From the IMG/VR virus record IMGVR_UViG_3300017708_002382, positions 1 through 22,338 of that record: a stretch of DNA of 22,338 bases. One strand, 5' to 3'. Position numbers and translations under genes: made by a program. The notes under the pieces are model-generated. The model searched no databases, was not told the DNA's origin, and saw only the letters and a program-made list of their open reading frames with translations. The stretch comes from a virus. Numbering within the stretch: position 1 is the stretch's first letter; each line of letters starts with the position of its first letter. Below, in pieces: positions 916 through 22,338 of the stretch.

Positions 916-1218
916 ATGTACCAGGCCCAGGACTTCAAGATCACAGTCCAAGTCGAAAACGGTGTTGAGTCGTTCACATGTAAAGACGACGAATACATCC
1001 TCGACGCTGCCGAAGAAGCTGGCATTGATCTTGCTTTCTCCTGTAGGGCTGGAGCTTGCTCATCATGTGCTGGGCAGGTAATTGACGGAGAGCTTGACCA
1101 GAACGACCAAAGCTTTCTGGATGACGATCAACTCAATGCCGGCTTTGCGCTCTTATGCGTTGCTTACCCAAAGTCAGACATTGTCCTGAGGCCTAACGCA
1201 GAAGAAGACCTGTATTGA
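916..1218 (+). CDS. petF: Plant/cyanobacterial-type [2Fe-2S] ferredoxin
   Basis: The 100-residue product is full length for a photosynthetic ferredoxin. It has the complete cluster ligand set Cys43-x4-Cys48-x2-Cys51 and Cys81 within [12 protein letters not shown] and LLCVAYP. It also keeps the acidic DQSFLDDDQ segment and the C-terminal EEDLY that contact ferredoxin partner enzymes. In the family, PetF carries electrons from photosystem I to ferredoxin-NADP reductase, thioredoxin reductase and bilin reductases. Cyanophage ferredoxins are known to support phage-encoded bilin reductases. No bilin reductase is visible in this window. The ATG at 916 follows a GAGGAC ribosome site that overlaps the end of the upstream secreted-protein gene. 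A further cysteine at position 22 is not a cluster ligand. The identification is firm, and the physiological partner is inference. Confidence 0.97.
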
Positions 1219-4132: not shown

Positions 4133-7100
4133 TCAGCGAGCGCGTGCGTTTTGGGAGGGGTGAGAGGCCCAAGCCATATAAATGTAAGTAACACCACTGT
4201 TGTTAGTCGTTTGAGCATCAGCTTTTAAACAAAATCCATTGCTCAAAATATCGATAGAACCATTTGTCTGCTCTTGGCCGCTTGTGTCTGCATACAAGTA
4301 TTCATTTGCAACATTTCCAGGGCTTCTAGCGGTGTCGGCCATGTGCCAACCGTTGCTGCCATCTGAAGATCTTTTAATTATGAGTAGCTTTGGCTTAAAT
4401 CCTAAGTGAACAAAATTAGAGCTACCTGCATTTCCGACGTACGAACCAAACGCGCTATAGCCCGGCACGGGTGCGAAACAATAGGCGATGAAATCCTCCC
4501 CTGATACGTTGGCGGTGCTTATGAATGAAAAAGCAGACGATGTCGGATCTGTACTATTCCACACATCTGGATTTGTAAAATTGACACCACTATCGCTTAG
4601 CGATAAAAATGTATTATTTGGAATACTTGTATGAAATACTTGCCAGTGTTCTACTGAACTTCTTCTTTTTAACCAGACCATCTTAGGCGCTGCATTTAAT
4701 CCGTGCCCGATAGTTGCATTTGCGCCCGTTCCAGTCCAACTAGTGATAGAGAACCCAGCAGACGGATTGGCGCGACAGGTTGATGAGATTGATGGGACGT
4801 TTACAGCAGGTGTTGAACCTTGGTCTACAAGAATTTTGCCATTGACTTCAACTGCATAAAATTCCCACGCTCTGCCTGAACGCTGAATCCTGATCTTGGT
4901 TATAGGACCAGCATAGGTTGTTGCATACCACTGCCTTCCAGATTGATCGCCAGTAACAGTTTCTACGTTTGTTGATCCATTGTACAAGTTAATGTATAAC
5001 GGTTGGTTGCTGGTAACTGCTGCGTTAACCCTTACCCCTCCTGAAGCAATGGTAGTGCTAATAGGAATTTCAATGTATGCATCAGTTGTATCACCTTCAG
5101 CAAGAGTATAAATACTGCCGTCAAAACCATTTGTTAGTGGATAACTGCTATTTACGCTTCCGCTGCTAAGTGTGGCAATGTTGCTCCAAACAGCGGTCTG
5201 GTTATACACCGAGCTGTTTAATCCACCAGCAGGAATGACGCCAGTATCAACTAAGAGTTTGCCCCCAATCTCAATTCCACTAAACCTTGGATTACTTACA
5301 CCAGAAGCAATGGTAATGCTTGTTATAGGCGAAGTGATGCCTAAATTAGTAAGGTTGACTGCAGTGTTTGTAGTTCCAGTGGTAACAGAGCTACTAAAGT
5401 CAAGAGTTCCACCAGCGTGTACACAAGTGAATTGATTACCAGAAGGCATTCCGTCACCAGCACAGTAAATAATTACTGAACCAGTGAAGGCATAACCACC
5501 TGCTGGCGTCCAGGTCATACTGCTGTTACCGTTTACCCTACATCCAAGACCAGTAAGAATGCCATTAAAACCTGACGTAGCTGGATTAGCTGCCTCGATT
5601 CCGTTGCCCGTGGAGGTCATCATGCCACTCCAGATAGCGCTTTGATCGTAAGAACTGTTGGTGACTAGATCGCCTCCCTCCCAGGTCCACGCAACCCAGG
5701 TGCCAGAGCCATTAGCGCCAGTATCAGTTCCTAATGTAAAACCATCATTCGTGAATGAAGTAACACCGGAAATAGTTTGTTCGGCAGCAGCAGTGTTGCT
5801 TGTCAAATATTGGTTGGCGCCTCTGACAGTGTCAAACAACCCATTGCTAGATCCAGAACTGCGGTGTTTGTACCAAACAAAGTCAGGGCTATGGTTGATA
5901 CCAGTAATAGTTTGAGCTGTTGCGTTGTTTCCGTTGTATAAGGTTGCATCCATAGCCGTCGAACCGTCCGCAATCGTTGGGTCGGGTAGGTTTGCAGTGT
6001 TTAGGGCAAGAAAATTAGTAGGTGCTGCGTAGCTGAAACTTCTTTGCCCAAAATTTACAGAAAGCGCAGAGGTGACAAGGTTGACGCTAGGGAACGGATC
6101 AGAAACGTTGGACGCAGTAGCTTCAGAACCAGCGCCTGGATTGCCGTTGGCACTAGAGCCACTACCCATCCAAACATTATTCATGCCAAGCCAAAGCTTG
6201 TCCGCATCAGCGTCATAAGCGACCTGCAAAACACTACCTACAGCAGGGTTACCATAAGCACTATCAAAAGAGGTCGTGCTGCTTCCGATATACCTTTGAA
6301 CGTTATTTGAGGAGTTAACAAGGATGAGAAAAACACCGCTGTTAGAAAGGCTAGGGTTGGCAAGACCACTATTGTCTACGCCAATGCAACAAGCGCCTCC
6401 AAGCGTAGTGATGGTTGCCTCGTAATACCACTTACCAGTTGCTGGATACTTCATTGTTGCTCTGCCAGCAAAATGATTAGCGCCACTGGTTTCAGCAGCG
6501 TCTAAATTTCCGTTAGACAACGTTATGTTTGAATTTTTATCTAGCGGATTCCAGGTCGCATAGTTACCAACAACCTCACCGCCCGCGCCACTATCAGTCT
6601 GAGCAGCACGCTGCTCAGGAGTGTCAACTAATGAGTCGCAACCTTCGCCAGGCAGGTTATCGGCAAATGCCATGTAGATGTAGTTGTAGCCGTTGTAGTT
6701 TACATTGCTTCCATCAACAGTGAATCCATTGTCTAAGTAAGTAATTGAAATGTTCGAATTACTGTTTTCAGACGAAGTACCATTTGCTTCAAGCCAAGAG
6801 CTTCCACGATTACTGTCAAGCAGATGCCAGTTAGATCCGTTTGTCGACCTGATTATTACAAAAGCGGGCTTAAATCCAGTCGAAATATAGTTGGCAGAAC
6901 TTGTGCCTGTGTACGAACCAAACTTGCTAAATCCAGAAATTTCAGACCAGCAGTAGGCAATAATGCCTTTGTTATTAGAGTTTGTATGCCCATTGGTTCC
7001 AACGTGAATAACAGAACTTGTGGGAGCGGTGTCGTTCCAAACGTCATATCCGCTTGCTACTCCATTTGAATTGTTTAAATGAAGGTATTGTGTAGTCGTA

Positions 7101-9739
7101 TTTGCAAGATCCTTATGCCAAACAATCCAGTCTGCTGCTTCGCCATAGTTTTTGACAATAATCATGCCAGGGTTAGCACTTAGGCCGTGCCCGACAGTTC
7201 CATCAGATGCTGTCCCTGTCCACTTAACAACGGAAAATCCTTTTGCCTGATTTGCACTAACCTGACTGGTTATTGTTCCATCTGTATTAGACGAGGCAGT
7301 ACCACCGGCTTTCCAGGCCCAAGCAACGTAAGTGGCGTTATTAGTATTACTGCCACCATCACTAGTTAAAGTAAATCCATTTGAATCAAATGACGCAAGC
7401 CGGTTGCCAGTAAATTCCGCTCCGTTGTAATCACTTTGAATAGTTTTTGATGCACCTCGGACTGAATCTTGAATGTTGTGGTTACCTGTACCATTACGTC
7501 TTTTAGTCCATACTAGGTCAGGCTGAAAACCCACCGTTATTGCTGTCTGTTGAGCATTGCCGGTATAAGTAACCGCCTTGAAGTTTTGCCCAGGCGTTGT
7601 GTCGCCTGTTGAAGCCGTAAGGTTATTGACATTAAAGTGATTGCCAATATCATCGGCAAACGCCATGTAGATATAAGTGCCACCACCTCGGATATTTCCG
7701 TTGTCACCAGTAGCAGGTATCGAGAAACCATTTGACTCAAATGTGATGTCACCAACACCGCCAGGGTCGCCTTCTACTCTCTCCCTGTTAGCAGTGAGAT
7801 GGTTTGCACCGCCGCGCGTTGAGTCATACATGACCCACTGATAGCCACCCGAACCTGCACCTCGTATTAAAACAAATGCAGGCTTAAAACCTGTAGTGAT
7901 GGTTTGAGCTTCGTTTGTGCTGGAAGCATAAGTCCCAATTTTGCTATACCCAGCGATCTCTGCGAAGCAATATGCATATGCATCGCCGCTATTGTCTGCT
8001 TGGTAAGTAAATACACTTGAAGTTGGACTACTGTAAGACGAGTTATTGCCGCCACCTGTGCTGTTCAAGACATAGTAATCATAAGAGCCATCAACTACTG
8101 TCGTATAAACAAGCCAATCAGCACTCTTATTTTCTTTCATGATGATCAGCTTTGGAGCTACACCTAAACCGTGCCCCGTTGTTGCAGCATTACCGTTGCC
8201 TGTCCACTTGACAACGGAAAATCCATATGCCTGATTTGCACTTACCTGACTGGAAATTGCTCCGTCAGTATTAGTCGAGGCAGTACCACCGGCTGCCCAG
8301 CACCAAGCAACGTAGGTTTTTCCTGAGACATTTGCGCCGCTGGCATTTGAGTCGGCTCCCAGAGCAAATCCTTGGTCAGTAAAAGCAGTCAGGTTGTCTG
8401 TGCTGGTATCCGGTGCCGAGGGATCGTTGGGAAATAAGCGGTTACCTGCGCCTCTAATAGTGTCATAAATTTGATGCCAGGTCGCATGGTTACGAGACTT
8501 TATCCATACCATTCCTGGTTTAAAACCGACGCTAACTTGCTTAGAACTGCCTGTACCGTTGTACGTTACCGCCTTAAAGTTTTGACGTTTATCTGTTGTA
8601 TTTGATGTTGAACTTGTGTCGTATCCAAGCGTTATATCGGAGCTGTTGTCAGAGAAGTTAAGGTGGAAGCCGTTAACGCCAGCAGGAATGTTAGAGGAAG
8701 TGTCTTCCAAAATGTTTCCATCTACATATACTGCGCTGACGTTTTCGTAGCTGGTCCAGCGCTTCCATTCCATTTTGCTAATAGAAATACCGGTCCAAGC
8801 ATTGGGAATCAGCCAGCCATTGGTTGAGTTTTCTGTAAGCTCAATAGTTGTACCGTCTGATGCCTTTGTGAGTCGAAGATAACGATAATTTGTTCCACCT
8901 GTAGCGCCGCCGTTGTTAGTGTTATAAGTGAATGTTCCGTTATTCAAAGTAAAGGTAACAGGTCTCTCGGTAATAGTTGTATAGCTTCCGCTATTCAACG
9001 CGCCATTTGCGTATGTAGATGTATTGCCATCAAACATTGTGGACGCATTCTGGGATGTGCTGCTGCTGCTGTACGAAATAGTAATAGTACTGGCAGAGCC
9101 GTTATAACTGCCCTCATAATCTTTTGGCTGCCACACACCGTTGTCATCGGTCTCGCCCAGGTCACTCGGTGACGCTGCGATTCCGTCGAGAAAGTGTACC
9201 TCGGCTAAATACGCATTTAAAATATTACTTGCGTCAGTGCTAATTCTTTGCAAGTATGACCCGTCATTGACGCGAGTATTAATATTTTGCCCTGGCCAAT
9301 TAGTACCTGCGGTAAGAGTCTGCTGAACGCCGTTGACCCAAATTTTAACTCTATTTGAGTCAGTAGCTTGAGTCGTGTCTACTGCACATACGACGTGCAT
9401 CCACGCGCTAGGGTCACGAAAAACAGCATCAGTATATACATAAAAATTATCTCCACCGTATTGATCAACTTGTATGTGATCTGAGCTATTAAATTTTAAA
9501 AGAGTGTAATTGCTACCTTGTCCTCCGTGAAGCAATGCACCGTTAGTTCCAATGCCGCTGCGTTTAACCCAACCGCTCCACGTCCACGTTTTTTGATTAC
9601 CTCCAGAATTTCCCCTACTCAGGTAACTTGTATCTGCTGAATTGAACCTAAGGCTACGAGAAATCTGGTAGCCACTACCAGCCGCAGCGGCGCTTGCTCC
9701 TGAAGCTCCGCTCAGCGCACTGTTATTAACTACGCTCAT
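4133..9739 (-). CDS. Giant modular virion adhesin / tail fibre (LamG, repeats, SPRY)
   Basis: This 1868-residue protein is the largest gene in the window. After an Ala/Gly/Ser leader, residues about 28-195 form a laminin-G/concanavalin-like domain (TWTWSGWVKRSG, WVNGVQQTL, AEVHFLDG). A second beta domain follows to about 370. From about 385 and 718 come two copies of a roughly 330-residue module (QNFKAVTY, GFKPGMVWIKSR, YVAWCWAAGG, GFSVVKWTG, YIYMAFAD). Partial copies lie near 1268 and 1663 to the end. I believe this matches a marine-phage domain known as DUF7483. A SPRY-like domain lies at about 1065-1265 (GKWYYEATI, KLWLGMNN, VNFGQRSFSY). Such proteins are predicted receptor-binding fibres. 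The start is an ATG preceded by GGAGAT, overlapping the upstream TGA. A candidate chaperone follows directly. Confidence 0.85.
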   Translation of the reverse strand: MSVVNNSALSGASGASAAAAGSGYQISRSLRFNSADTSYLSRGNSGGNQKTWTWSGWVKRSGIGTNGALLHGGQGSNYTLLKFNSSDHIQVDQYGGDNFYVYTDAVFRDPSAWMHVVCAVDTTQATDSNRVKIWVNGVQQTLTAGTNWPGQNINTRVNDGSYLQRISTDASNILNAYLAEVHFLDGIAASPSDLGETDDNGVWQPKDYEGSYNGSASTITISYSSSSTSQNASTMFDGNTSTYANGALNSGSYTTITERPVTFTLNNGTFTYNTNNGGATGGTNYRYLRLTKASDGTTIELTENSTNGWLIPNAWTGISISKMEWKRWTSYENVSAVYVDGNILEDTSSNIPAGVNGFHLNFSDNSSDITLGYDTSSTSNTTDKRQNFKAVTYNGTGSSKQVSVGFKPGMVWIKSRNHATWHQIYDTIRGAGNRLFPNDPSAPDTSTDNLTAFTDQGFALGADSNASGANVSGKTYVAWCWAAGGTASTNTDGAISSQVSANQAYGFSVVKWTGNGNAATTGHGLGVAPKLIIMKENKSADWLVYTTVVDGSYDYYVLNSTGGGNNSSYSSPTSSVFTYQADNSGDAYAYCFAEIAGYSKIGTYASSTNEAQTITTGFKPAFVLIRGAGSGGYQWVMYDSTRGGANHLTANRERVEGDPGGVGDITFESNGFSIPATGDNGNIRGGGTYIYMAFADDIGNHFNVNNLTASTGDTTPGQNFKAVTYTGNAQQTAITVGFQPDLVWTKRRNGTGNHNIQDSVRGASKTIQSDYNGAEFTGNRLASFDSNGFTLTSDGGSNTNNATYVAWAWKAGGTASSNTDGTITSQVSANQAKGFSVVKWTGTASDGTVGHGLSANPGMIIVKNYGEAADWIVWHKDLANTTTQYLHLNNSNGVASGYDVWNDTAPTSSVIHVGTNGHTNSNNKGIIAYCWSEISGFSKFGSYTGTSSANYISTGFKPAFVIIRSTNGSNWHLLDSNRGSSWLEANGTSSENSNSNISITYLDNGFTVDGSNVNYNGYNYIYMAFADNLPGEGCDSLVDTPEQRAAQTDSGAGGEVVGNYATWNPLDKNSNITLSNGNLDAAETSGANHFAGRATMKYPATGKWYYEATITTLGGACCIGVDNSGLANPSLSNSGVFLILVNSSNNVQRYIGSSTTSFDSAYGNPAVGSVLQVAYDADADKLWLGMNNVWMGSGSSANGNPGAGSEATASNVSDPFPSVNLVTSALSVNFGQRSFSYAAPTNFLALNTANLPDPTIADGSTAMDATLYNGNNATAQTITGINHSPDFVWYKHRSSGSSNGLFDTVRGANQYLTSNTAAAEQTISGVTSFTNDGFTLGTDTGANGSGTWVAWTWEGGDLVTNSSYDQSAIWSGMMTSTGNGIEAANPATSGFNGILTGLGCRVNGNSSMTWTPAGGYAFTGSVIIYCAGDGMPSGNQFTCVHAGGTLDFSSSVTTGTTNTAVNLTNLGITSPITSITIASGVSNPRFSGIEIGGKLLVDTGVIPAGGLNSSVYNQTAVWSNIATLSSGSVNSSYPLTNGFDGSIYTLAEGDTTDAYIEIPISTTIASGGVRVNAAVTSNQPLYINLYNGSTNVETVTGDQSGRQWYATTYAGPITKIRIQRSGRAWEFYAVEVNGKILVDQGSTPAVNVPSISSTCRANPSAGFSITSWTGTGANATIGHGLNAAPKMVWLKRRSSVEHWQVFHTSIPNNTFLSLSDSGVNFTNPDVWNSTDPTSSAFSFISTANVSGEDFIAYCFAPVPGYSAFGSYVGNAGSSNFVHLGFKPKLLIIKRSSDGSNGWHMADTARSPGNVANEYLYADTSGQEQTNGSIDILSNGFCLKADAQTTNNSGVTYIYMAWASHPSQNARAR
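7223..7310 (-). repeat. Internal adhesin repeat, copy B
   Basis: This stretch is close to identical in DNA to 8207-8294, an offset of 984 bases (328 codons). It encodes the end of one module and the start of the next (AGGTASSNTDGTITSQVSAN). High DNA identity against otherwise diverged modules suggests a recent duplication or gene conversion. Confidence 0.75.
8207..8294 (-). repeat. Internal adhesin repeat, copy A
   Basis: This is the partner of the stretch at 7223-7310. It encodes AGGTASTNTDGAISSQVSAN and the following GFSVVKWTG. Only a minority of bases differ by eye. Confidence 0.75.
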
Positions 9740-18021: not shown

Positions 18022-19191
18022 TCAATATACGAATGAGTAAGCAACGGAAATGAAGTCGCGATTTAGCACTTCAAATCCTGCGAAGAGGCTCCAGATCATG
18101 ATAATAAAGCGACTGAAGTCGTCATTATTGTTCAGAAGGATCTGAGCATTATTTCCGCCAATACCTACGCCAACTGCCTGAGGACCGAAGAACAGCATGG
18201 GGGCAGCGGTGTAAACCGCCTGAGTGCTGTCAATCGAAACATCAAGGCTCTTTTCGGCCAAGTTTGTTGACTCGAACCAACGAACTCCTTCAAAGAGGAA
18301 GCCAGTTGGCATCACGGGCTGACCAGCCACAAAGCCTGCCTGTCCATAAGCGGGACCCATGCCATAGAAGAAGTTGGCGTTGGGAGCCTGCTCAGGCTGC
18401 AGGGGGTTGACCATGCCATTACCTGCATATCGGGCGATTTCCCGGAATGCATCGTTTTGGCGCAAGTGCATCATCGCAGTTGGATCTGCGATGCAGCGGT
18501 AATAACCATCAGCGAACGTAGGAACATTGCGCTTACGCATGTCCTTGACCACCTGAAGCAGGTCGGTCTTGACGTCAAACTTCGCCGACTCAGTCGATGA
18601 ATAAGTCAGGAAGGGTGCAGATGATGCCTTTGCCTTGCTCAGCGGGTAGTAGTAACCACCTTGAGTGTCAGAGGCTTCGCCATTCGCTTCAGCTTTGAAC
18701 AGCTCGTCAGCGAAGACGCGGTCACGCCACCGGCGATAGTCATCCAGCAGGGTCAGAGAACCAATGCTTTGGTGGAAGACATTCAGGTTGCCGGTATCAA
18801 GCAGCAAGCGCTGAGCGGTCAGCAGTGTCTCGCGGGCAACCTTGAAAGTTGAAGGTGCCGTGGAGTCGGTTGGGTCTGCGGGTCCGGTGTACTCCTTAAG
18901 AGTCACCATGACCTTGTCTTTAACAATAGAGCGGCTAGATGCAGTGCCCAGTGTTTGATCAGCTGTGCGTTCTCGGGAATCCTTGTTACCAGGATTGCCC
19001 CAGAAGCGGTAGCGATCTAGCTGAACAGTTTGACCGGGTTGCTTAGCAAAATCGTGAACAACCACGGGCTCTACCGCCATCTCAATGATGTAGCCCGGAT
19101 GAGGGCGGTAAAGCTCAGCACCTAGCAGCTTTGGAAAGTCATTATCAATCCACATGGATCGAAATTCCTCAGCTGTAAGGGGATATTGCAC
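18022..19191 (-). CDS. Probable major capsid protein
   Basis: The 389-residue product has the size of an HK97-fold capsid subunit. The N-terminal part (PGYIIEMAVEPVVVHDFAKQ, PGQTVQLDRYRFWGN, then ADQTLGTASSRSIVKDKVMV) resembles the N4-gp56-type capsid family, in which a hydrophobic-Phe-Ala-x-Lys/Gln start, a Gly-x-Thr-Val-x-hydrophobic-x-Arg-Tyr strand and a following loop open the fold. Later segments (YYRCIADPTAMMHLRQNDAF, REIARYAGNG, GFLFEGVRWFESTNL, APMLFFGPQAVGVGIGG) match the axial-domain pattern of that family. It leads the late operon. The start is uncertain: GTG at 19191 lacks a good ribosome site, and ATG at 19155 has GAGGA ten bases upstream. I assign it from motif memory and context, not a search. 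Confidence 0.82.
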   Translation of the reverse strand: MQYPLTAEEFRSMWIDNDFPKLLGAELYRPHPGYIIEMAVEPVVVHDFAKQPGQTVQLDRYRFWGNPGNKDSRERTADQTLGTASSRSIVKDKVMVTLKEYTGPADPTDSTAPSTFKVARETLLTAQRLLLDTGNLNVFHQSIGSLTLLDDYRRWRDRVFADELFKAEANGEASDTQGGYYYPLSKAKASSAPFLTYSSTESAKFDVKTDLLQVVKDMRKRNVPTFADGYYRCIADPTAMMHLRQNDAFREIARYAGNGMVNPLQPEQAPNANFFYGMGPAYGQAGFVAGQPVMPTGFLFEGVRWFESTNLAEKSLDVSIDSTQAVYTAAPMLFFGPQAVGVGIGGNNAQILLNNNDDFSRFIIMIWSLFAGFEVLNRDFISVAYSFVY

Positions 19192-19210
19192 GCGCGCTGC
19201 GTGCTAACTC

Positions 19211-19231
19211 TTACTATAGAAATAACTTATA
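19211..19231. promoter_or_regulatory. AT-rich divergent promoter region candidate
   Basis: The 51 bases between the capsid start and the endonuclease start hold TATAGA on the + strand (19215-19220) and TATAGT and TATAAG on the - strand, which could be -10 elements for both divergent genes. No clear -35 boxes stand out. The block TTATAGGGA also recalls a phage-polymerase promoter, but no second copy was found. Confidence 0.3.
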
Positions 19232-19242
19232 GGGAACACTTT

Positions 19243-19926
19243 TTGGACGTTACGGACGTCAGGGGCTTACTGGGATTGCTCCTTGTTGACGGAAGCCTCG
19301 TGCCATACCGCAGTCCTGGCGGTGGATACATTCAGATGACACTTACAGCAGGAATTAAGTCCTCTGCGTTCCTGGAAGATAAGGCGACTGAATTTCGTCA
19401 GTTCTTTCCAACGCGAGCAAAAATTACTCCCTACAGAGGCTCAGCCAGGGACAACGGAAAACGGACTACGGTTCTTCGCTTCAGGGTCTCCACTAATAAA
19501 TTGAGGCCTGTCTACAACTTGCTTTATCCAGCAGGGGATCGAACCATCACTCAAACAGCGCTTGATCTACTTGGTGCTAAAGCTGCTGCATGGTGCTGGG
19601 CCGAAGGTGCTCGAGTTGATACGAGCACTAACAAGGCTGAGTTAACCCGTGTCGGCAATACCTGGGCAGAGGCCTCAAGGCTCCAGGGTTGGCTTCAAAT
19701 GCTTACTGGAGCCAGGTCGGAACTGAGGGAATACAGGCATAAGCCACGCCTTTACTTCGACGCAGTCGAGGCTTTGAAGATCCGAGAAGCTCTCATCGAG
19801 TACGCCCCAAAAAGTCGTTTGCACCTATTTACCGGAGAGATACCAGATGTCAGCGCAATTCGTTCAGCGCGTACTGAGTTATTGCTTGGGAGTGGGGCAA
19901 ATCAACCTGCTAGGGCATCGCAGTAG
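19243..19926 (+). CDS. LAGLIDADG-type homing endonuclease
   Basis: The 227-residue product starts at a TTG with AGGGA about eight bases upstream. An earlier in-frame TTG at 19186 would overlap the capsid gene and is rejected. The first LAGLIDADG helix is VRGLLGLLLVDGSL, with the acidic residue Asp16 before Gly. The second is ALDLLGAKAAAWCWAEGARV, with Glu121 in the catalytic position instead of Asp. The region between is beta-rich (GYIQMTLTAGIKS, TVLRFRVSTNKLRPVYNLLY). A second-half pattern follows (NTWAEASRLQGWLQMLTG). This layout fits a two-motif monomer, which in the family cuts a long target site to spread the gene. It sits in opposite orientation directly upstream of the major capsid gene, a classic intergenic homing niche. 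Its 3' end overlaps a second, related gene by 80 bases. Confidence 0.72.
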   Translation: MDVTDVRGLLGLLLVDGSLVPYRSPGGGYIQMTLTAGIKSSAFLEDKATEFRQFFPTRAKITPYRGSARDNGKRTTVLRFRVSTNKLRPVYNLLYPAGDRTITQTALDLLGAKAAAWCWAEGARVDTSTNKAELTRVGNTWAEASRLQGWLQMLTGARSELREYRHKPRLYFDAVEALKIREALIEYAPKSRLHLFTGEIPDVSAIRSARTELLLGSGANQPARASQ

Positions 19927-20434
19927 ACCATGGCTACAGATCGTTCGACCTGAGACTGAGAAGGTCTACCTGAATCATCAGCTCAAGCAGATGCGGCTGG
20001 CCCATGCCGGTCCACTGGAGTACGTCTGGGACGTATTGCCGACGGATGGGTTTTACGACAAGAAAAGGCTCAGGGTTCGAAGTGACGAGTTGTACCGCGC
20101 TTACGAGTTGATGTATCCAAGAGACAAAAAGATCATCACTCCTCAGGTCATGAGCATATGCGGCATTTATGGATTGACCGCGCTGTGGTCTGATCGTGGT
20201 CGGGTCGTTGGCCGCTTGGGCAAAATTCGCACACGCCTAAGCACTGAGGACAATCATGTCATTGCTGGTTGGTGTAATGACAATGGATTTTCCTGCTCTC
20301 TCATCAGCCGGGAAGACAAGTGTTTTGGAATTCAATTTGATAGGGATTCGACGCAAAACCTGATTGCAAGCATTCGCCCACATATCCATAAGACAATGCG
20401 CAAGACCTTCACTCGCGTCCCAGCAGTGACTTAG
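19847..20434 (+). CDS. Degenerate LAGLIDADG-like paralogue
   Basis: The 195-residue product has its own ATG with GGAG nine bases upstream, inside the last 80 bases of the first endonuclease gene. It is alignable by eye with its neighbour: first helix VQRVLSYCLGVGQINLL, a basic beta segment (PLEYVWDVLPTDGFYDKKRL), ELYRAYELMYPRDKKIITPQ, second helix GIYGLTALWSDRGRVVGRL. The ending (CFGIQFDRDSTQNLIASIRP, HIHKTMRKTFTR) resembles the end of the LAGLIDADG_2 family. The acidic residues expected before the two key glycines are Val16 and Arg117 here, so it is probably not a nuclease alone. It could be a decaying copy, a specificity partner for the active neighbour, or a maturase-like DNA/RNA binder. 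The homology is from motif memory. Confidence 0.62.
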   Translation: MSAQFVQRVLSYCLGVGQINLLGHRSRPWLQIVRPETEKVYLNHQLKQMRLAHAGPLEYVWDVLPTDGFYDKKRLRVRSDELYRAYELMYPRDKKIITPQVMSICGIYGLTALWSDRGRVVGRLGKIRTRLSTEDNHVIAGWCNDNGFSCSLISREDKCFGIQFDRDSTQNLIASIRPHIHKTMRKTFTRVPAVT

Positions 20435-20538
20435 CAACTGGATAAGATTTACACAGCTCCGAAGAAGAACTGCGTCAGGAGCTTTACTACCTAGCCAGGA
20501 GTCCGGGTTTTTGTAGTTTCAACGGATTGGCAACTGAT

Positions 20539-20567
20539 CCACTGTGCAATTGGCCCTTGTGCAGTGG
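20539..20567. repeat. Inverted repeat in the intergenic gap
   Basis: CCACTGTGCAA and TTGTGCAGTGG can pair as an 11-bp stem (two G-T wobbles) around a seven-base loop. It lies in the 169-base gap between the LAGLIDADG pair and the CP12-like gene. No T-run follows closely enough for a standard terminator. It could be a transcript-stabilising hairpin or operator. Confidence 0.5.
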
Positions 20568-20584
20568 CACCTGGCTTTTACAAT
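20557..20584 (+). promoter_or_regulatory. Possible promoter for CP12-like gene
   Basis: TACAAT at 20579-20584 is a good -10 match. TTGTGC at 20557-20562 is a weak -35 match at 16-base spacing, inside the right arm of the inverted repeat. The next gene starts 20 bases after the -10 element. Confidence 0.3.
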
Positions 20585-20603: not shown

Positions 20604-20822
20604 ATGAATATGCAAGACACCGGCGAATGCGTTGACGGCGTCTGTCCCGTGAATTTCAGTGTTGCTCCTAAAGCGCCTGGAACAATCTTTTTCGCTCCTA
20701 TCGAGGAGCCTGAAATCATTGAAAAGCCGAAAGGCAAGCCAGTAACTGACTTTCGACAGAAATTCATTGACTATTGCGAAGAACATCCGTTCGACGTCGA
20801 GTGCAAAATCTACGAAGTATAG
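20604..20822 (+). CDS. Small protein with CP12-like C-terminal motif
   Basis: The 72-residue product ends FRQKFIDYCEEHPFDVECKI plus YEV. This fits the C-terminal half of CP12: Cys-x-x-(Asn/His)-Pro...Glu-Cys-x-(Val/Ile)-Tyr-(Asp/Glu), with Cys58 and Cys67 eight residues apart as in CP12. In CP12 that loop inserts into glyceraldehyde-3-phosphate dehydrogenase and, when oxidised, shuts it and phosphoribulokinase down. The N-terminus has a second pair, Cys9 and Cys14 (GECVDGVCPV), and then a Pro/Lys-rich linker instead of CP12's usual helical middle. So this is either a divergent phage CP12, or a different redox protein that keeps the GAPDH-binding end. The ATG at 20604 has a weak ribosome site, and a second ATG lies two codons later. 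It is flanked by unrelated genes. Confidence 0.6.
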   Translation: MNMQDTGECVDGVCPVNFSVAPKAPGTIFFAPIEEPEIIEKPKGKPVTDFRQKFIDYCEEHPFDVECKIYEV

Positions 20823-20871: not shown

Positions 20872-21312
20872 ATGGCTGTCTTTAATAAACTGAATGGCTT
20901 TGTTGAGCACCTCAGCGAAGGCGTTCACAATCTTGGCAGCAATCAACTCGTTGTTGCGCTCAGCAACACGGCCCCAACTGCCGAATCCACCCCACCCACA
21001 GGCGACACGGCCAATTGTGTTTTGGCCAATGTTTCTCAAGTCTCTTACTCGGATTTGAGTACTCGCAGTGTCACAACTTCAAGTTCTTCACAGACATCGG
21101 GCACCTATCGCCTGGTCTTAGCCGATCTGACCCTGACATCGTCTGGGACAGTGGGTCCGTTTAGATATATCTACCTTTACAACGACACACCAACTAGCCC
21201 TGCTGATCCCCTGATCGGTTATTTCGATTACGGCTCAGGCCTCACCCTTGCTAATGGTGAGAGCTTGACAATCGATTTTGACCAATCATCAGGTGCATTG
21301 ACATTGGGATGA
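20872..21312 (+). CDS. Virion-type beta protein of marine phages
   Basis: The 146-residue product starts MAVFNKLNGFVEHLSEGVHN. The segment LGSNQLVVALSNTAPTAEST follows. This opening, a short helix and then a Val-Ala-Leu-x-Asn-Thr-Ala-Pro strand, is one I recognise from widespread small structural proteins of marine cyanophages and pelagiphages. The rest is a Ser/Thr-rich beta sandwich (YRLVLADLTLTSSGTVGPFR, YIYLYNDTPTSPADPLIGYF, DYGSGLTLANGESLTIDF). It has no signal peptide. It is followed after 19 bases by a gene with cupredoxin-like repeats in the same direction, so the two probably form the beginning of a second structural operon. The tail or fibre location is inference. Confidence 0.78.
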   Translation: MAVFNKLNGFVEHLSEGVHNLGSNQLVVALSNTAPTAESTPPTGDTANCVLANVSQVSYSDLSTRSVTTSSSSQTSGTYRLVLADLTLTSSGTVGPFRYIYLYNDTPTSPADPLIGYFDYGSGLTLANGESLTIDFDQSSGALTLG

Positions 21313-21331
21313 TCCACCGCTTGAGGTAAGC

Positions 21332-22338
21332 ATGCAAGCGGATAGTGGCTCGTTTTCTCTAGGGGCGTCATCTGCCGATCTGATCACAGCCACCCTTCGG
21401 ATCAACAGTACAAAGTTTGCGCTTGAGTACCCTCGGGCGTTAACTAATTACATTCGTATTTATGACGCTGATTCGGCGTCGTTCAGCACGTCTGGTAGTT
21501 CTGTCGACTTTGACCTCGGCTACTACCTTGGAGTCGATTCTCAGGAATACGTCTCGAGCTTTGGAGATGTTCTGCTCAAGCGAGCTCTCAAGTTTGTAGG
21601 ACAAACCGAGAGTTTTGCCGTCGGGACGTCGTCTGTCTCGTTCCCCTTTGGCTATCGCTTCGCAGCGCAGAGAGCCGGGTTTAACGAAATTAATGAAGAG
21701 AGGACCTACGCAGTCACCGCCGCAGGGGGAGCCTTCTATATCGATGGGGTCATACGCGGGTCTCTCGATCTCGCTGAAGGCGGGACTTACACCTTTGATC
21801 AATCAGACAGTAGTAATAGCAATCATCCGTTTCGCTTTTCGACTACCAGCAATGGCACGCATGGCAGTGGCTCAGAGTATGTAACCGGCGTTAGCACAAG
21901 CGGTGTTCCAGGGAACCCAGGGGCTTTCACCAGAATCACTGTCGCAGCTGGGGCTCCGGACCTTCATTACTATTGCGTCAACCACTCTGGGATGGGGTCG
22001 ACGGCCAGCACGCCTACGGCGACTGGCATTAGGACGTATCGAGTCATTGTGGTCAGCACAGGCTCTGGCAATAAATACTTTGTCGACGGAGTCCAGCAAG
22101 CTGTCCTCAATCTCTCGGAGGGAGGGGCCTATACATTTGATCAGTCAGACAGCAGTAATAACAATCACCCGCTTCGCTTTTCTACGACGGACAATGGCAC
22201 GCATGGCGGCGGGTCGGCGTACACAGTCGGAGTTACTACTAACGGCATCCCTGGAAACCCAGGAGCTTTCACCCGGATAAGGGTTGCTGTTGGCGCTCCA
22301 GATCTTCATTACTACTGCGTCAACCACTCTGGGATGGG
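21332..22338 (+). CDS. Structural protein with cupredoxin-like repeats (partial, runs off the right edge)
   Basis: An open frame starts at the ATG at 21332, with GAGGT five bases upstream, and continues without a stop to the window end (335 codons and two bases). Residues 1-120 are a beta domain (GSFSLGASSADLITATLRIN, YIRIYDADSASFSTSG). Two repeats of 114 residues follow. Each has YTFDQSDSSN, a His (His165, His279) in N-H-P-(F/L)-R-F, and after 50 residues Y-Y-C-V-N-H-S-G-M-G (Cys215-His218-Met221; Cys329-His332-Met335). His, then Cys-x2-His-x2-Met, is the ligand order of type 1 copper proteins. The context is that of a cyanophage fibre or surface protein, where such repeats occur. Copper binding is not proven. 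Downstream sequence is missing. Confidence 0.8.
   Translation, partial: MQADSGSFSLGASSADLITATLRINSTKFALEYPRALTNYIRIYDADSASFSTSGSSVDFDLGYYLGVDSQEYVSSFGDVLLKRALKFVGQTESFAVGTSSVSFPFGYRFAAQRAGFNEINEERTYAVTAAGGAFYIDGVIRGSLDLAEGGTYTFDQSDSSNSNHPFRFSTTSNGTHGSGSEYVTGVSTSGVPGNPGAFTRITVAAGAPDLHYYCVNHSGMGSTASTPTATGIRTYRVIVVSTGSGNKYFVDGVQQAVLNLSEGGAYTFDQSDSSNNNHPLRFSTTDNGTHGGGSAYTVGVTTNGIPGNPGAFTRIRVAVGAPDLHYYCVNHSGM
21704..21996 (+). repeat. Cupredoxin-like repeat, copy 1
   Basis: This is the first of two tandem coding repeats. Its Cys-His-Met end lies 342 bases (114 codons) before the same end of copy 2. The protein identity is high in YTFDQSDSSN and in PGNPGAFTRI. The start differs by a four-codon indel. 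Confidence 0.85.
22034..22338 (+). repeat. Cupredoxin-like repeat, copy 2
   Basis: This is the second tandem repeat, cut by the window edge exactly after the Cys-x2-His-x2-Met end. It is related to copy 1 over nearly its full length, with synonymous differences showing it is not a fresh copy. More copies may follow beyond the window. Confidence 0.85.

Follow-up and report, generated by a model that had tools for sequence, protein, structure and literature searches.

A candidate CP12-type inhibitor of GAPDH beside a structured RNA in cyanophages related to S-EIVl

The CP12 proteins described in cyanophages share no more than the C-terminal region with canonical CP12 (PMC3906501, PMC9406205) and are reported to be highly expressed during infection in the light (PMC5082946). 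In Synechocystis, the C-terminal Cys pair of CP12 is the docking site for GAPDH and outweighs the N-terminal pair (PMC9623430), and the oxidised loop puts the C-terminal residues into the GAPDH active site (PMC4436894). Our tblastn search with a cyanobacterial CP12 tail retrieved 249 phage records, nearly all of them from cyanophages; the same tail stands on other front halves in S-SSM7 and S-TIM5 (PHROG 627), P-SSM2 (PHROG 2603), S-CAM9, and S-CREM1, and an N-terminal Cys pair is absent from the CP12s of all five.

The window analyzed here, a 22,338-nucleotide stretch of viral DNA (IMG/VR record IMGVR_UViG_3300017708_002382), encodes a 72-aa protein (MNMQDTGECVDGVCPVNFSVAPKAPGTIFFAPIEEPEIIEKPKGKPVTDFRQKFIDYCEEHPFDVECKIYEV; Table 1) that ends in a tail of this type. 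The CP12s of T4-like cyanophages (S-SSM7, S-TIM5, S-CAM9; PHROG 627) resemble it in their length of 70-75 aa, in the C-terminal YCxxNPxxxECxIYDD, and in being without the CP12-type N-terminal Cys pair and the AWD_VEEL motif; however, they belong to a different phage family and have their own helical HIxKDxEIL...RRHxEEEL front half, whereas the window protein has a second Cys pair and an IFFAPIEE segment. The P-SSM2-type CP12 (PHROG 2603) carries the same tail but differs in its own His/Asp-rich front half and its length of 88 aa. Canonical CP12 (PF02672; 6gfo) shares the C-terminal CxxxPxxxxC loop and the IYD end; its N-terminal C-x7/8-C pair and PRK-binding AWD_VEEL stand against C-x4-C and IFFAPIEE in the window protein, and homology between the two is undetectable outside the tail and linker. 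In the C-terminal extension of plant GAPDH GapB, a CP12 tail has likewise moved onto another protein, although there it is fused to the target enzyme itself. The window protein gave no full-length match to PHROG 627 or 2603, and its relatives match these families in the tail only (E 0.002-0.02). The minimal, tail-only form, which the initial annotation had presented as a novelty, is not one: here, too, the tail ends a short phage protein without the N-terminal features of CP12, and such proteins are already known from T4-like cyanophages (PMC3906501, PMC9406205). What is new here is the occurrence in the S-EIVl lineage, together with the front half, the site of the cassette, and the RNA next to it.

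Table 1. Features of the window discussed in the text
Feature	Positions	Strand	Basis or remark
Photosynthetic-type [2Fe-2S] ferredoxin	916-1218	+	closest to photosynthetic ferredoxins
Very large repeat-rich protein (1868 aa)	4133-9739	-	probably tail fibre or adhesin
Major head protein (phrog_1357)	18022-19191	-	67.2% identity over 97% to S-EIVl; assigns lineage
First overlapping ORF	19186-19926	+	between capsid gene and RNA
Second overlapping ORF	19847-20434	+	different frame; weak LAGLIDADG_2 match; GGAGAG before its ATG
Structured RNA	20454-20581	+	four helices plus kissing-loop helix, T-rich end; covariation; 22 nt before ATG
72-aa CP12-tail protein	20604-20822	+	translation, homologue alignment, dN/dS; start may be 20610 (Met3, opposite Met1 of most homologues in the alignment)
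N-terminal C-x4-C (Cys9, Cys14; CxDG[FV]C)	20628-20645	+	invariant in 12 close homologues; absent from other subclades
IFFAPIEE segment	20685-20708	+	near-invariant in this subclade
CP12-type tail RQKFIDYCEEHPFDVECKIYEV, Cys58-x3-Pro-x4-Cys67, predicted to dock on GAPDH	20754-20819	+	PF02672, PDB CP12 chains, hhalign
Next gene, PHROG 644	20872-21312	+	synteny landmark
Sequence with internal repeats (QSDSSNxNHP...YYCVNHSGMG)	21312-22338	+	probably a further adhesin-like gene, cut off by the contig end

The 72-aa protein and its tail

The 72-aa ORF is a real gene under purifying selection, since most differences between its close homologues are silent (dN/dS ~0.03 to 0.1 in the pairs L016/L017, L005/L014, and L003/L008). 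Between distant pairs, dN amounts to 0.28-0.65 in the front half versus 0.10-0.14 in the tail. Translation places the residues as initially annotated (Cys9, Cys14, Cys58, Cys67, His-Pro, Glu-Cys, and Ile-Tyr-Glu), and in the alignment of 12 close homologues both Cys pairs are invariant and IFFAPIEE nearly so. Two sequences from the first homologue scan (L009 and L010) were discarded as non-homologous, being methyltransferase-like by eye, and matches to Salmonella phage Vi06 were dismissed as chance.

CP12 (PF02672) was the sole family found by hmmscan of the protein, with residues 52-71 aligned onto positions 51-70 of 70, the last stretch of the profile; the score of 19.7 bits (E=0.0015) misses the Pfam gathering cut-off of 22.7 bits. 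The same profile was matched by 12 of 12 close homologues (best 1.1e-7), with L005 (29.6 bits), L014 (28.8), L016 (27.6), and L012 (23.3) above the cut-off. Searched singly against the PDB with phmmer, the protein hit CP12 chains only, weakly (E ~0.2). The profile of the 12-member family ranked 6gfo (4.3e-5), 3zdf (1.1e-4), the CBS-CP12 chain 5nmu, and 3b1j at the top, the best matches being GAPDH-bound CP12 chains (E=4e-5), followed by the CP12-derived end of plant GAPDH-B; hhalign to the CP12 peptide gave 96.6%. An NCBIfam search yielded no match. The CxxxPxxxxC pair of CP12 with its acidic/aromatic end is present as C58-EEH-P62-FDVE-C67-KIYEV and is invariant in the 12 homologues. The tail pattern occurs in 37 of 10,863 distinct ORF ends from related loci, 36 of them at the site of the 72-aa ORF and one in S-EIVl, versus none of 217,260 shuffled ends, and thus is not due to chance. 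By these profile matches the C-terminal loop is homologous to that of CP12, beyond mere likeness of pattern. The initial proposal of a CP12-like loop is thereby upheld: the PF02672 profile similarity that it anticipated was found, and the C-terminal cysteines, on whose conservation it had been made to depend, are kept in every homologue class. Some copies vary at positions thought to be important, with Tyr replaced by His in L006 and L007 and the Glu before the second Cys replaced by Lys in L054 and by Gln in L047, and the IYD end is lost in L071 and L072; given these variants, not every copy need be active.

The AlphaFold model contains helices at residues 48-60 (pLDDT 82) and 65-71 (pLDDT 73), which resemble the helical tail of CP12 in crystal structures; the remainder is of low confidence (overall pLDDT 64), and most of the chain is probably disordered. 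A fold search with this model returned no match.

A cassette site beside the capsid gene

The major head protein, 67% identical to its S-EIVl counterpart and without another match in the annotated phage set, places the phage near Synechococcus phage S-EIVl and bears out the cyanophage context assumed at the outset. Among 80 capsid-gene relatives collected from IMG/VR, 66 extend far enough to cover the site. In 40 of these 66 (some represent the same phage from different samples; L071 and L072 are included despite the lost IYD end), an ORF with the CP12 tail at its end lies beside the capsid gene, on the opposite strand and starting ~1.23-1.43 kb from the capsid start. The remaining 26 are devoid of the gene at this site, and in those checked the next gene directly follows the upstream element, so that the tail ORF behaves as an insertable cassette. 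No other CP12 match was found in the longer cassette-less records L068, L082, L113, and L059, which may be fragments.

At least four classes of N-terminus occur at the site, namely CxDG[FV]C...[IV]FFxPI (as in the window), GGHYMAQQG..DPLDSGMRRKF, KECTGACERHC..PSGLRRKF, and SDYCxASGLRRKF, and all share, with local exceptions, a tail that approximates RxKF[IL]x[YF]CxxxPxxxECxIYx. Conservation of the second Cys pair and of IFFAPIEE is confined to one subclade; in sister phages the same tail follows different N-termini. The PF02672 match stops short of the N-terminal half, the Cys pair found there is C-x4-C in place of the canonical spacing of 7 or 8, and the AWD_VEEL core for PRK binding is absent from all members, in agreement with the initial remark that the usual middle helix is missing. 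Of the rearrangement also suggested there, the kept tail stands, but the second Cys pair is a feature of a single subclade and the front has been exchanged; the protein is better read as a tail retained with its front swapped. The idea that IFFAPIEE is a relic of AWD_VEEL, with an N-terminus homologous to that of canonical CP12, was rejected: the elements do come in a similar order, but no profile match extends into that region.

The CP12 tail also occurs, unannotated, in S-EIVl itself (KJ410740; 6068-5931, minus strand), as a 45-aa ORF that scores 25.7 bits, above the Pfam cut-off, adjoins PurM, and has an ATG overlapping the upstream stop (TAATG). It resembles the window protein in its tail (AFKSYCEENPSSRSCRIYDV) and in coming from a related phage lineage, but differs in length, N-terminus, locus, and the Ser in place of Glu before the second Cys. 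Nor is the S-EIVl major head homologue (60859-61989, plus strand; within KJ410740 60784-62010) annotated as one gene; listed in its place are a hypothetical CDS on the other strand and a short CDS on the correct one.

The 72-aa ORF is situated among structural genes. The two overlapping ORFs between the capsid gene and the RNA point to an endonuclease-like gene that is split or frameshifted, and not to a sequencing error, since overlapping multi-frame ORFs occupy this region in 19 of 19 checked relatives as well. One relative (L020) is assigned to a Phycisphaerae MAG, most simply as a mis-binned phage contig, and we drew no host from it.

The upstream structured RNA

The DNA of the 128-nt element preceding the ORF is conserved across all subclades while reading frames shift. 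The element was found in 117 fetched loci (L038, L057, L073, L085, L093, L111, and L059 are among the loci that bear it), and in 66 of 66 capsid-linked loci covering the site, 65 by pattern and L102 by covariance model. It is also present in loci without the CP12 cassette and hence is not CP12-specific. The covariance model detected it in further IMG/VR contigs and did not find it in S-EIVl. The element folds into the hairpins GCyCC/GGrGC, AGCTCGG/CCGAGCT, and CCGCCGTGCGT/GCGTGCGGCGG and a closing helix CCAGG/CCTGG, after which a T-rich stretch follows, and a kissing helix joins the first two loops with pairs such as ACTAC/GTAGT, ACTGC/GCAGT, ACGGC/GCCGT, ACTAT/ATAGT, and ACGAC/GTCGT. Over 44 distinct sequences, pairing holds in 95.4% of cells versus 33-45% when it is slid by 1-3 columns, a control that overstates a little because we drew the structure on the same alignment; the covariation goes far beyond this effect, with changes on both sides in 24 of 34 pairs. 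In the kissing helix 100% of cells pair, and three pairs covary.

No Rfam 15 family matched the element at its gathering score. CyVA-1 (20.5 bits, near the element) and suhB (29.3 and 26.5 bits, elsewhere in relatives) fell below their gathering scores, were inconsistent between loci, and were rejected. In many loci, as judged by eye, a -10-like TAAGAT shortly precedes the 5' end and T-rich sequence follows the 3' end, features compatible with a leader or with an independent small RNA; a scan with consensus models reported neither promoter nor terminator at the element. The element may be a new small RNA or leader of these phages.

Proposed inhibition of host GAPDH

We propose that this S-EIVl-like cyanophage lineage uses the protein as a CP12-type inhibitor of the photosynthetic GAPDH of its host, a reading that we regard as likely and infer from the tail homology together with the published docking of the tail. 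During infection, the C-terminal loop (residues ~51-72), closed by a putative Cys58-Cys67 disulfide, would dock on host GAPDH and bring its final residues into the active site, the arrangement seen in crystal structures of CP12 with GAPDH. The Calvin cycle would be slowed, presumably directing NADPH and sugar phosphates to phage nucleotide synthesis. PRK is probably not recruited in the canonical way, because the AWD_VEEL motif is absent, and the front half would be a lineage-specific, exchangeable part. Counted against this proposal are the sub-cut-off Pfam score, the tail variants, the low overall pLDDT of 64, the null fold search, and the 26 of 66 loci without the gene.

An unlikely elaboration would make CxDGxC-IFFAPIEE a second docking module of independent origin, one that binds PRK, ferredoxin/thioredoxin, or some other enzyme of the Calvin cycle, in a two-headed regulator expressed from the transcript with the kissing-loop RNA. 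Rather improbable, in our view, is a competitor role in which the tail, having no PRK site, would take the place of host CP12 on GAPDH and block the GAPDH-CP12-PRK complex, leaving PRK free when conditions turn oxidising; the tail is present without AWD_VEEL and cyanobacterial hosts have CP12-like proteins of their own (PMC3906501), but an occupied GAPDH active site should in itself inhibit the enzyme, and published phage work favors Calvin-cycle inhibition (PMC5082946, PMC9406205). Similarly doubtful is a tail acting as a docking tag for GAPDH, with CxDGxC-IFFAPIEE or another N-terminus as the effector that is thereby delivered to a further enzyme or to a redox partner, for instance the phage ferredoxin. 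In its favor, the subclade shows no change at Cys9 or Cys14 and hardly any in IFFAPIEE, fusions of CP12 tails with other domains are known (CBS-CP12, GapB, ADK3; PMC9406205), and the window encodes a photosynthetic-type ferredoxin; yet the N-termini of sister phages at the same site are unrelated, so that no single effector is conserved. A chance or convergent Cys loop in a small virion or metal-binding protein, to which the short motif, the Pfam score, and the structural neighbors might point, is very improbable given profile-level matches in several libraries, the absence of the pattern from all shuffled ends, and a tail that outlives changes of N-terminus.

Inhibition of GAPDH by the retained tail, the reading that we prefer, would carry the viral arrest of carbon fixation beyond T4-like cyanophages into the S-EIVl lineage, whose reported share of marine cyanophage abundance is ~3% (PMC5332604). 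The unannotated copy in S-EIVl exposes missed annotations, and the adjoining structured RNA offers a new, testable phage RNA. What these phages retain is only the tail predicted to plug GAPDH, the remainder of the protein having been exchanged.
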